A model generated the notes under the pieces. The model was not told where the DNA came from and searched no databases. It worked only from the letters and a program-made list of their open reading frames with translations. The translations under genes were made by a program, and so were the position numbers. From Geosiphon pyriformis (taxonomy: Eukaryota > Glomeromycota > Glomeromycetes > Archaeosporales > Geosiphonaceae), in the NCBI GenBank assembly GCA_016748015.1, contig JAAOMT010000599.1, positions 220,151 to 284,150 of the forward strand: 64,000 nucleotides of DNA, written 5' to 3'. This document shows positions 56,170-64,000 of this stretch, one piece after another; the first letter of the stretch is position 1; each line of letters begins with the position of its first letter.

Positions 56170-59100
56170 ATGGAGACGGGATACCCCCCACCAGCACGAG
56201 GGGCCACAATTAATCGTGGCAAGACTCTCAGCAGGCCTGAACGTTACCAGCCAGCCACTCCGCTACTCACAGGTCAAAAGGAGAGTTCATCTTGGGATCC
56301 ATGGGTTGTTTTTTCGCGTGTTGTCACTTTTTGGGCACCTGGAGCTCTATTATCGTCCATAGGTCATCTTGGTGATAAAGGTTCACAACAAGCGTGGCGA
56401 GAAAAGATTGCACTATGTTTCATCGCACTCATTATGAGCGGCATCGTCGCCTTCTTGACTATTGGCTTTGCTGCTGTGCTATGTCCACCGTCACAAGCAA
56501 GTAACCCTCAAAATTTTTTGCACTATGGCGATTCACCAGGTAAATAAAAATCGTTAAAAATTGAAGAGTTTAAATTTTTAGTATTAACTGTCTGTTTAGC
56601 TAAGAGTTACAAGAGCTTATATTTATTTCATTGAAATCACATATTTAAAAAAGTCACCTCAATACGTTTAACTTAATTGATCATAACCGTTAACTTCAAT
56701 ATTTAACTAAACTTTTAGGAAATCTTGGTATCCTCGGTTGGCAGTTTAACATCTCATCTTCAGATAATCGTGGCAACAAAGCTCTTGACTTTTATGCATT
56801 GAACGCACAACAAAATGGGCAAGATATTACAAACAGGTTCAGACGTGACAATAACCAAATTGCAGCATGTCAAGGGGATATCAAAAAGTTCATGGCCGTT
56901 AAAATGCCATTATGCCAAGACCCGACTCAATGTCCTCTTCCACTATCACCTGAAACTTTTAATCTTTTCAAAATCTACAACACCACTAAGCGAGTTGGTT
57001 ATGATTGGAAACAATTAGCAAATAGCACCTTGAAAAATTATATGGTCATCGATGGAAATGTCCTAAATCTTGATCCATATATGAACGCCAATCGAAACCC
57101 AATACCTAATGATGACGTAGATCTTGCCATTCGCACAGTATTAGGCACTGATCACGTCCAGGGTGGTAAAGATGGCACTCGTCTTTTCTTTGGAAGGAAG
57201 GAATTGAAGGACACTGTCAATTGTCTGGTAAAAAAATATTTTGCTGGAAATATTGATAAAGAAACAATTGGTTGCTTCACTTCCCAACTCTTCTTATATG
57301 TTTCATTGACCGTTATTTTGAGTATTGTCATGGTTCGATTCTTCATGGCCTGTGTTTTCGATTGGTTCATCTCACATCGTCTTGCTCTAGAACCAAAGAA
57401 ATCAGATAAAGCTGTCGTGTCTCCACAAGTTAGTGGCGCCGGTGGTCGTGCTGCTCCATGGGCTCAACGTAATGAATCTGGTTCTGTAATCAAAACTATT
57501 GGCATGGATGACGTAGGCAATGATCTTTTCACAGTATTACTGGTCACTTGTTATTCTGAAGGTGAAGAAGGTCTTCGATGCACTTGTGAATCAATGGCTG
57601 CTACTGACTATCCGGATGATCGTAAATTGTTATTTTTGGTTTGTGATGGTATCATCACTGGTCATGGTAACGACAAGAGTACCCCGGATATTTGTGTCGA
57701 TATTTTGGAATTATTGCCTGAATTCAAAGATCCTCAACCTCAATCTTATATCGCTGTCGCTGCTGGCTCCAAACAACACAATATGGCTAAAGTTTATGCT
57801 GGTCATTTTGGTAAGTTAAATTCATGAGTCAGGTTGATCCGTAGTGGCTATTTCATCTCCCAAGTTCTAATATGATTATTGAGTATCACTGATTTATACA
57901 TTTTTAATCAAACATAGTCTACAAAGATCGTCGAATTCCAACTATCTGTGTGGTTAAATGTGGTGGTCCTGACGAACAAGGCAAACCAAAACCTGGTAAT
58001 CGTGGTAAACGTGATTCTCAACTGATTTTGATGAACTTCTTCAGTCGCGTCACCTATAATGATCGTATGACTAGTTTGGATTATGATTTGTTTCGTAAAG
58101 TTCATCGCCTTATGGGCGTTACCCCCGATTTTTTTGAGATTGTTTTAATGGTATGTTCACACCTTTTTAATACTCCTCATTTTACATCGTCTTTGAAAAT
58201 TACTAAATTAAACTCAATAAACTTTCTTTCGTATTAAAGGTGGATGCAGATACTAAAGTATACCCTGATTCACTCCGCTTATTAATTAACTGTATGTGTA
58301 ACGATCCCTTGATCATGGGTCTTTGCGGTGAAACCAAAATTGCAAACAAAAAAGATTCTTGGGTCACAGCCATTCAGGTCTTTGAATATTACATCTCTCA
58401 TCACTTGGGTAAAGGTTTCGAATCTGTATTCGGTGGTGTGACCTGCTTGCCAGGTTGTTTCTGTATGTATCGTCTTAAAGCAAGGAAAGGTGATGACGAT
58501 TGGGTACCAATCATCACTAAGCCAGAAATTGTTCAGGAATACTCGCAAAATACTGTCGACACTTTACATCAAAAGAATTTATTGTTACTTGGAGAAGATC
58601 GTTTCTTGACCACACTGATGTTGCGTAATTTCCCACATCGAAAAATGATGTTCTGCCCCCAAGCCGTCTGCAAAACTATTGTGCCCGATGAATTTAACGT
58701 ATTACTGTCACAACGTCGTCGATGGATTAACTCTACCATTCACAACTTAATGGAATTAGTTCTTGTCCGTAATCTTTGTGGGACTTTCTGTTTTTCGATG
58801 CAATTCGTTATCTTCATGGAGTTGATCGGTACCGTTGTATTACCAGTTGCTATCATGTTGACTTATTCATTGATCATTGGTGTCATTCTGAAACCACCAA
58901 AGGATTTTGCTGATGGTATTCCATTGCTCATGTTGGGGATGGTTCTCGGTCTACCAGCCATTTTAATTCTCATTACTACACGAAAAATTGTATACATTGC
59001 GTGGATGTTGATTTATTTATTGGCTTTACCTATATGGAATTTCGTTCTACCCACCTACGCTTACTGGCATTTCGATGACTTTTCATGGGGTGAAACAAGG

Positions 59101-59625
59101 TTTGTAAAAACCAAAAATAAATGGTTGATTTTGATGGTTGATTTTTATCATTACTAATTTGTTTATCACCCCCTATTACTTGTGATTTACAGAAAGGTTG
59201 AAGGTGAAGGTAAAGGTGATGACCACGGTAAAAAGGATGGTGTATTCGAAGCTTCCAAAGTACCATTGAAACGCTGGGAAGACTGGGAACGTACACGTCT
59301 CCGAAAAGTGAAACGTGACGCTGAACGTCAACGACAAGCACAACAAATGGCACCAGCACATCTCACACACTCTGCCATATCAGGTGAGGATGATGATAAA
59401 GGTCTGGTAGATAATCAATATTACGCCGAAACCTCTTCAATAACATCAGCAGTATCACAAGACATTGGTCTACCACAACAATATTATGATTATTCAGTGG
59501 GTGGTGGTAATAATTCAACAGCACCAGGATATCCACCGCAACATTACGATCAATATAATCAACAACAGCGACCACCACAAGATCAATACGGTAATCAATA
59601 TGGTGGGCAACAGGGTCATTATTAA
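56170..59625 (+). CDS. Chitin synthase, class IV (Chs3-like)
   Basis: Processive GT2 enzyme making cell-wall chitin from UDP-GlcNAc at the plasma membrane. Five exons in phase: 56170-56539, 56719-57810, 57918-58150, 58240-59099, 59193-59625, giving 995 aa. Membrane segments at about residues 80-104 and 313-337 flank a large extracytoplasmic-type domain. The catalytic core begins near [12 protein letters not shown], with DAD at 567-569, GEDR at 683-686 and QRRRW at 723-727. Several C-terminal membrane helices follow, then a cytosolic Lys/Arg-rich and Gln/Tyr-rich tail. The DDVGND...TCYSEGE pattern and the lack of a myosin domain favour division 2, class IV. All catalytic motifs are intact. Class is inferred from motifs, not a tree. 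Confidence 0.93.
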
Positions 59626-60792: not shown

Positions 60793-62198
60793 TTAATTCA
60801 AAAGATCATTAAGTGACATCCCACTTGGTCTTTCATATTTTATCTCCACTACATCATCATCACCATCATCGTTATATTTTTCTATTTCTTGTGCTTCCTC
60901 TTCTGCCTCATCTTCATACTCATCCATAACTTCATCTAGATCTTCCATTTCAGGATCTGATTGATGATCACCAAAGTCTTTTAATGTTTCTATCAGAATT
61001 TGGCTAGCACTACCTATGGGGTTTTTTTCTCTGTGAGATTGAAGAAATATGATAAATAAAAGGTAATAATGTGGTTTGCAATGAATCAGTTGGGACTTTG
61101 GTTTACCTCAAAGTGTGCAAAACCCTTATTAGTTCATCCTTTAGAGGAGTGTGATGGAAAATTTCAACCATCTTACGACATTGATCTATGCTAAAGATTG
61201 AGGCAGACGGTCGAGGCCACACACATATTAATATATGTGAGATTTGAAGAAGTGAAAAAAATGTGGCCCTTTAATTACCATGTTTTAAATTTTACTTCAT
61301 CATTAGGCAAATTTTGTCCGTATTTCCGAATTTTATTGAGTGTTGTCTAAAAATTTTTGATATATTGAAAGATTATTTTTAAATTTACGCTCTGGAAAGC
61401 TAGCATATCTTTTGTTACCTCAACGATATCCGGTTTTGGTAATGGAATCTTTTGGTCAGATGCATAACTCTTTGGATGAACCCCGCGTAAGTTTCTGGGA
61501 TCAATAAGTAAATGATGCTCAGATCCTTGAGGAAATATGCTCAAGTGAAAATCTTTTTTAGAAGTAAAGTTTAAATAAATTACAATATGGTCCAAAGAAA
61601 TATTAGAGCAGGGATATAAAAAAAGACGAAATACTTACATGGAGCTTCTCCTTTAACATATCCGTTTGGCTTTGGCGAAATCATTCCATACCAATCATCT
61701 CCTAACGGAATAATTCCTGTAAATTTATCTATATATGAGGCCTGTAATAACATGTAGAAAACGTCGCTTTCATACTGATTTAAAATGGTTAATATTTTCA
61801 AATAATAAAGGTTAAATACTAAAATCAATGATTTCAACTAAAATTAATTTACTTCATCTTTCAACTGTGTACTTAAGGTTATCCAATAAATGGACACGAT
61901 TGGGAGTCTGATCTCATGTTTTGAGAATCCAATGATGGAAAGTATTGGAGGCAACTCTGGGGCTAATCACAAGGGAAGTAAAAAATTTGAACCGCGGCGC
62001 GAAGGATCCGAAAACTCGAATTAGCTTAATGTAATAAGAATAGGAATAGGAATAGGAATAGGAATAGGAATAGGAATCTGAGTGATTCTCTATGAGTGAT
62101 TAATTGAACATTGGATTTATCTGCACTTACTAGAATCATCGGCAAAAATTGGAGTTAGGCAAATTGACATGGCAAGATGTCCACATGCGAGGGTCCTG
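60793..62198 (-). CDS. Integrator complex subunit 14-like protein (5' end not found)
   Basis: Seven minus-strand exons join with perfect phase: about 62198/62195-62131, 61962-61853, 61741-61639, 61552-61419, 61346-61279, 61190-61107, 61030-60793. The order of blocks recalls INTS14 after its VWA domain: CGHLAMSICLTPIFADDS, PILSIIGF, a GDDWYGM strand, HLSIFPQGSEH, then LNKIRKYGQNLPNDEVKF and a helical segment. The C-terminus is very acidic and ends SGMSLNDLLN. INTS14 pairs with INTS10/INTS13 in the Integrator complex that cleaves snRNA and nascent transcripts. The N-terminal VWA exons should lie further right but were not found. The fifth junction (61279/61190) is the least certain. Exon structure is confident; identity rests on remembered family patterns. 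Confidence 0.55.
62041..62076. repeat. Hexanucleotide microsatellite (TAGGAA)6
   Basis: Six exact TAGGAA units inside an intron of the minus-strand gene. Confidence 0.97.
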
Positions 62199-63608
62199 CT
62201 GATATACAGATTAGCTTTATATGTAAAAATTGAGGTATTCTTAGATTTTTTGATTGAATTTTTAATCTTGAAATGAGATGAACCGGAGCAATATCAATGG
62301 GAAAATTTTCCAAATTCGGAACTCATTATATTTCCAAATCTCTCCCACCTTTTGTTGAAGATCCACTCATTATAGTAACTTCCATGTTTTTTTTAAGGAT
62401 GGAATGTTTTTAAATATTCTATTTAAAAAATGATCCAAATTTGAGCGGGAATCTGGAGTATTTATATTTTCCGAGTTCTAATCAGCAGATCAGCCTATCA
62501 TTAGAATCTTGAGACAACTACAATATGGAACAATTGATTTTTGGGAATTATTATTTTTATGAAAAATTAGTTAAATTGAATAAAAATTTAGATATAAAAT
62601 CTTTAAGAATAAGTTTATTCAAAGATTATTATTTTTTTTTTAAAAAAATATCTTAATGTTTTTTCTTGTGGATTTATTTTAAAATAACAAAAATATATAT
62701 ATAATTGAAATGACAATTATAAAAATTTCATTGATATTTTTTATCATGAAAAATTTTTACAAATGCGTCACATTTAAAAAATTTTTAAATTACATTTTTC
62801 TTTAATTATACAAATAAATAAGGTTACTTTAAAAATTATTTTCATTTAAATTTAAGTAATTATTAATAGTATTAAATTAAAAAATATTCACTCCAAAAGC
62901 AAAATGTCTTACACTTTATCTTTTAAATAAATAAAATAAAAGATTTTAATATTTCCTTTATTTTAAAGAAAATTTGAAATCATTCACCGTTATAGATATT
63001 TTCATTAAGCATATAAATTTTTTTGTGAAATAGATACAATGATTAAAAATTATGAATTATAAATAATCAGTTTTACAATAATACCCTATTAATCTTATGT
63101 TCTTATTTCTAATTTAGTACTCCCTTTTTACTTTTGTAAATTTATTTTTTAATTATCATCGATAAAGACATACATGTTAAAAACAAAATCTGTGGATACG
63201 TTTGGATCCAATAAAAATATTCCAATTTCTTTAATTGAATTATTTTTACTCTCCGAGATAGAGCTTTATTAAACTTTTAAACTTTCAATGGATTATAATT
63301 CTGAATTTCAAAGAAATAAAAATTTTCAGGTTTGAACTACCATATCAGATTTTGGATTTCATTTAATAGCATAAGTTCAATATGTAAGATACAGAAAAAA
63401 TAAGAATTCTCATTTGAAATTAATAAAGAAAAAACTTTTTTCTCCCACTAATTTTAGTAGGGTTTGTCTCTTATAATATTAAAATTTTTTGAGGTTAACA
63501 TTGTTAGGTGTTTGCACCTTATAAAGCCACATCATATTTACTGATATATGATCGTAAAAATAAGTTTTCCATGAATTTTTTCAACCAACTCATTATATGG
63601 TATGATAC
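62199..63608. other. AT-rich DNA before the terminal gap
   Basis: The first 350 bases have mixed composition and may contain upstream exons of the Integrator-14-like gene that I could not resolve. The rest is AT-rich with no visible gene. Confidence 0.4.
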
Positions 63609-64000
63609 NNNNNNNNNNNNNNNNNNNNNNNNNNNNNNNNNNNNNNNNNNNNNNNNNNNNNNNNNNNNNNNNNNNNNNNNNNNNNNNNNNNNNNNNNNNN
63701 NNNNNNNNNNNNNNNNNNNNNNNNNNNNNNNNNNNNNNNNNNNNNNNNNNNNNNNNNNNNNNNNNNNNNNNNNNNNNNNNNNNNNNNNNNNNNNNNNNNN
63801 NNNNNNNNNNNNNNNNNNNNNNNNNNNNNNNNNNNNNNNNNNNNNNNNNNNNNNNNNNNNNNNNNNNNNNNNNNNNNNNNNNNNNNNNNNNNNNNNNNNN
63901 NNNNNNNNNNNNNNNNNNNNNNNNNNNNNNNNNNNNNNNNNNNNNNNNNNNNNNNNNNNNNNNNNNNNNNNNNNNNNNNNNNNNNNNNNNNNNNNNNNNN
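63609..64000. other. Assembly gap (Ns) to window end
   Basis: 392 unknown bases run to the window end. The missing 5' exons of the neighbouring minus-strand gene may lie here or beyond. Confidence 0.98.

Follow-up and report, generated by a model that had tools for sequence, protein, structure and literature searches.

Integrator has been described as absent from yeast or as restricted to metazoans (PMC7347597, PMC9006982); the original prediction for this locus started from the view that yeasts and most fungi usually count as lacking the complex. In humans, INTS13 pairs with INTS14 in an entwined heterodimer; the pair serves as a nucleic-acid-binding arm and positions the INTS9–INTS11 nuclease, and human INTS14 has at its N-terminus a VWA domain of 200 residues, on which INTS10 docks (PMC7347597). 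In the same work, the LG(PISD) linker motif, which threads an INTS13 loop, was described as metazoan. Besides an upstream sequence element (USE) and a TATA box, plant snRNA genes carry the 3′ box CA(N)3-10AGTNNAA, and they are served by the DSP1 complex (PMC5079582). Here we compare with these systems a gene at one end of a 64,000-nucleotide stretch of Geosiphon pyriformis DNA (the window), together with the 124.7 Mb assembly containing it.

The gene had been proposed to consist of seven phase-consistent minus-strand exons, and this was confirmed: running from 62195 to 60793, the exons splice in phase into 275 open codons closed by a terminal TAA, and all six introns (72–174 nt) are GT-AG. The exons and the region upstream of them are as follows.

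63609..64000, no strand: run of N, 546 bases in total, continuing past the window end; could hide 5′ exons
62196..63608, minus strand: upstream stretch, 5–33% GC; no VWA and no convincing 5′ exon found
62131..62195, minus strand: exon a, TLACGHLAMSICLTPIFADDS; opening of the INTS14 beta-barrel, from human residue 215; phase 2 at its 5′ end
61853..61956, minus strand: exon b, KLPPILSIIGFSKHEIRLPIVSIYWITLSTQLKDE; barrel; contains KLPPILSIIGF..., aligned by the model to LEIVGF..
61639..61774, minus strand: exon c, YESDVFYMLLQASYIDKFTGIIPLGDDWYGMISPKPNGYVKGEAP; barrel, against human 309-336, FCVLLHGSLKVEGMVAIVQLGPEWHGML
61419..61552, minus strand: exon d, FHLSIFPQG...; barrel end and linker toward the helical domain
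61279..61346, minus strand: exon e, TTLNKIRKYGQNLPNDEVKFKT; start of the alpha-helical domain (human 414-433)
61107..61190, minus strand: exon f, IDQCRKMVEIFHHTPLKDELIRVLHTL; helical domain
60793..61030, minus strand: exon g; end of the helical domain, acidic tail and TAA stop

Two changes distinguish this model from the first reading: the exon at 61956-61853 is included, and the fifth and sixth exons are joined through a TG/C codon, exon e ending in TG/gtaatt (slashes mark the junction). The added exon b bridges the CGHL and W-Y-G-M exons; its splice sites are good, and the introns on either side are canonical (GTAAGT..CCAG and GTAAAT..TCAG). For the mid-barrel, DQTPNRVHLLDNLK from another frame was also weighed, and was dropped because it does not splice in phase. 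Due to the phase 2 start of exon a, an upstream exon must exist, and the modelled gene is 5′-incomplete. The first intron is the largest (174 nt, 37% GC), and within it TTCCTA-type hexamers repeat over a short distance, at about 62035-62080 on the minus strand.

The predicted INTS14-like order of blocks is present in the spliced protein, as CGHL...TP...DD, W-Y-G-M, LSIF.QG and KIRKYGQNLP. End-to-end alignment of the fixed model to human INTS14 211-490 gave a BLOSUM62 score of 72, where shuffles averaged 10.8 ± 5.5. Of the 211 aligned columns 64 are identical (30%), and the match runs over human residues 215-490; z was about 11, a value inflated by the choice of exon b (61956-61853, ..ILSIIGF..) partly through spliced alignment to the same human protein. 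Across several matrices, and with either partner shuffled, z stayed at 9–11 and none of 1000 shuffles was as good. The human C-terminal query was identical at every position to PDB chain 6SN1_B. Control alignments (INTS13, the INTS14 VWA, reversed INTS14 and the fungal INTS11) gave no signal, with z from −1.1 to 1.6. Signal was also found in parts of the model: exon a alone, against human 216-229, was equalled by 2 of 2000 shuffles and exon c alone by 1 of 2000, exons e and f together were matched by 20–61 of 2000, and the barrel exons a–c gave pairwise z of 6.5–10. Exons b and d taken singly showed no signal over shuffles, and the linker in exon d is not conserved. Exons a, c and e are collinear with human 216-229, 309-336 and 414-433.

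Compared with human INTS14 (VWA9, PDB 6SN1 chain B), the fungal protein has in common the CGHL barrel start, the LLHGSLK..LG.EWHGM strand pair, the KIL...LP helix and the F..ELNRLRKA helix, in the same motif order, but it has shorter barrel inserts and an extra acidic C-terminal tail, and neither the VWA domain nor the LG linker motif was recognised in it. By eye, the fungal linker is HHLLIDPRNLRGVHPKSYASD; because LG(PISD) was described as metazoan, we do not treat it as defining for the whole INTS14 family.

Profile searches of the spliced exons gave a mixed outcome. On the barrel fragment the sole Pfam family was IntS14_b-barrel (PF19435), but its 15.7 bits lie under the curated cut-off of 25 (E 0.033, or 0.016 when the open frame preceding exon a was added). 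The match covers profile positions 93-128 and falls over exon c, where exon c is expected. Pfam gave no match to IntS14_C (PF20504), the C-terminal alpha-helical domain, in the modelled protein, and phmmer of the protein against PDB did not retrieve INTS14; weak matches of the helical part to Choline_kin_N and a T4 portal family were below cut-off and inconsistent, and were discarded. Genome searches with PF19435 or human INTS14 returned nothing, including at this very locus, and hence blanks from that kind of search are not taken as absence. When human INTS14 was spliced freely against the whole window, the locus was not unique, and other places scored as high or higher (another stretch at 59.5 and the locus at 52; when the intron penalty was made cheap, 95.5 and 69). 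Thus the case holds only if the fixed model is read together with the Pfam profile and genome context; on sequence alone the locus is a probable, not a proven, INTS14.

Genome context is the strongest support. We searched the assembly for INTS2, INTS6, INTS9, INTS10, INTS11, INTS13 and INTS14. INTS11 lies on contig C333, at 67% identity to human over 456 residues, and its spliced protein matches INTS11 far better than CPSF73 by phmmer (4e-241 vs 3e-103); CPSF73 is a separate gene on C366. INTS9 lies on C324 (best exons 38–43% identity, phmmer INTS9 6e-64). A metallo-lactamase on C203 was rejected as INTS9, as it reads by eye as CPSF100, which is also a separate gene. INTS13 on C282 gave a spliced alignment of 129 against 56 ± 4 for shuffles, matched PF10221 above cut-off (1.2e-17) and retrieved INTS13 from PDB (1e-15); a stretch resembling the INTS13 cleavage-module-binding motif did not outscore shuffles, and we set it aside. 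INTS2 on C284 has five collinear exons and matches PF14750 above cut-off (2.4e-13), and INTS6 on C317 gave 176 against 48 ± 6, with its barrel, PF25462, above cut-off (1.3e-17). Fungal and metazoan Integrator thus have INTS2, INTS6, INTS9, INTS11 and INTS13 in common, with CPSF73 and CPSF100 as separate genes, while INTS10 was not found in the fungus. Of the four other subunits named for checking in the original prediction, INTS9, INTS11 and INTS13 were found and INTS10 was not.

Because these subunits lie on separate long contigs, contamination is an unlikely source. The gene convergent with the INTS14-like gene, at 58207-59625 on the plus strand, is a chitin synthase (PF03142, 1.7e-166), from which we take the host to be a fungus. 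Since human INTS13 and INTS14 are entwined, INTS13 in this genome strongly raises the prior for INTS14. The claim of an INTS14-like gene was therefore borne out, with no other Pfam family on the barrel fragment and five other subunits in the genome, and the locus is very probably an INTS14 gene. Because INTS11, INTS9, INTS2, INTS6 and INTS13 share the assembly, we accept it with good confidence as a fungal INTS14 orthologue, comprising at least the beta-barrel and alpha-helical domains, within a retained Integrator.

Other explanations have to be weighed against this one. INTS14 and Ku have a VWA–barrel–helical architecture in common (PMC7347597, PMC11377751), and Ku70/Ku80 follow the overall domain order of INTS13/INTS14 (PMC7347597), so that a Ku-type or other unrelated gene might merely resemble INTS14; however, no match to a Ku family came from Pfam even with E allowed to reach 10, and the alignment is specific to INTS14 and absent with INTS13, which makes this reading very improbable. 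The remaining alternatives turn on the missing N-terminus. In the 1.4 kb upstream (62131-63608), spliced alignment of the VWA scored 30 against 28.8 ± 1.8 for shuffles, no VWA was found in the 6.9 kb past the 546-base gap, and the genome-wide search gave one chance match only (C359, E 6.35), which was dropped for want of coding context there. The VWA query was a single human sequence. The INTS10 family search of the genome was empty, which proves nothing, as the same tool likewise missed the INTS14 barrel. Immediately across the gap that lies upstream of the gene, about 1 kb after the window ends, an ORF on the plus strand (L001:1367-1585) has a TnpB/Fanzor-type zinc finger (PF07282, E 2.4e-6, above cut-off).

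These observations could point to a degenerate or 5′-truncated relic, a vanishing gene whose VWA exons were lost, perhaps through mobile DNA: neither a VWA nor a 5′ exon was found in 62196-63608 or in the 6.9 kb past the gap, and the zinc-finger ORF sits right beyond it. We regard this as improbable, given that the frame is intact with canonical splice sites over seven exons, that the partner INTS13 and four other subunits are in the genome, and that the missing exons can sit in the gap. A variant of the orthologue explanation, that this INTS14 lacks a VWA, works without INTS10 and keeps only the INTS13-binding barrel and the helical domain, would accommodate both the VWA that went undetected locally and genome-wide and the empty INTS10 search. 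Both negatives are weak, however, in view of the upstream gap, the single human VWA query and a search of the same kind having overlooked the INTS14 barrel, and we consider the variant rather unlikely; loss of the VWA jointly with INTS10 is an attractive but unproven idea. Named in advance as speaking against an Integrator subunit were profile searches placing the protein in another family, or a lack of other subunits together with the lack of a VWA domain; no other Pfam family matches the barrel fragment, the other subunits are present, and the VWA domain was not found. With these alternatives weighed, we keep to a fungal INTS14 orthologue within a retained Integrator.

By homology, fungal INTS14 would pair with fungal INTS13 through entwined barrels, and the pair would form a nucleic-acid-binding arm that delivers the INTS9–INTS11 nuclease to nascent Pol II transcripts; INTS2 would belong to the backbone and INTS6 to the phosphatase arm. 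Pre-snRNA would be the likely ancestral substrate. Twelve snRNA genes of this genome were compared (five U2, four U1, two U4 and one U4atac-like; L027-L038). TCCCAYAATT occurs exactly at −68 to −83 in 10 of the 12, where 0.013 would be expected, and near −36 a TATA-like box is seen in most of the genes. Downstream of the mature 3′ end, at +12 to +37, 10 of 12 have AGTGGGG with at most one mismatch; 3.0 would be expected, and 300 shuffles never gave more than 8. When the U4 group was scored with a matrix derived from six U1/U2 copies, the p values were 0.001 (the held-out U4 gene L036), 0.08 and 0.02; the two remaining U2 genes (L027 and L029) and a U1 gene (L035) failed this matrix, with p of 0.11, 0.15 and 0.23.

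This arrangement is like that of plant snRNA genes, with an upstream element and TATA-like box, and with an element containing AGT that follows the mature 3′ end; CA(N)3-10AGTGG, akin to the plant 3′ box, is matched by three of the U2 copies and by one U1. The fungal element is AGTGGGG, whereas the plant one is AGTNNAA, and the plant nuclease is CPSF73-I, whereas this fungus has a true INTS11. TCCCAYAATT is a candidate plant-like fungal USE, and the AGTGGGG element common to U1, U2 and U4 genes a candidate fungal 3′ box. We hypothesize that Integrator reads the latter in this fungus, in which case the precursor would be cut upstream of the AGTGGGG-type element after U1, U2 and U4. The analysis shows the gene model, the families of the other subunits and the elements flanking the snRNA genes; assembly of the complex, its nucleic-acid binding, the cleavage and the link of Integrator to the 3′ element are what we infer here. 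The full picture, in which Integrator works in this fungus with an arm reduced to INTS13 and a VWA-less INTS14 (INTS10 being lost), forms snRNA 3′ ends at an AGTGGGG box and links the animal and plant systems, is quite unlikely to hold in all its parts.

INTS14 is a known family, to which the fungal gene adds a member. A search of mainly open-access literature found no paper on a fungal Integrator, and automated database annotations of such subunits may exist. Integrator appears to be kept in this fungus: a fungal set of INTS2, INTS6, INTS9, INTS11, INTS13 and very probably INTS14 argues that the complex predates the animal–fungus split and that its loss came later, in yeast-type fungi. A similar late loss was reported for the Fanconi pathway in early-diverging fungi (PMC11061109). 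The fungus offers a system for asking how snRNA 3′ ends were formed prior to the takeover by the yeast Nrd1-type route, and its candidate 3′ element is directly testable.

Two of the snRNA copies deserve separate mention. The best Rfam match of L038 (C191:8134-8277) is U4atac, at 43.7 bits against a cut-off of 53 and better than U4, a sequence match which suggests that a minor spliceosome is present. The U2 copy L031 (C270:307558-307746) is without the upstream element and keeps the 3′ element, and it may be a retrocopy of a 3′-extended precursor.
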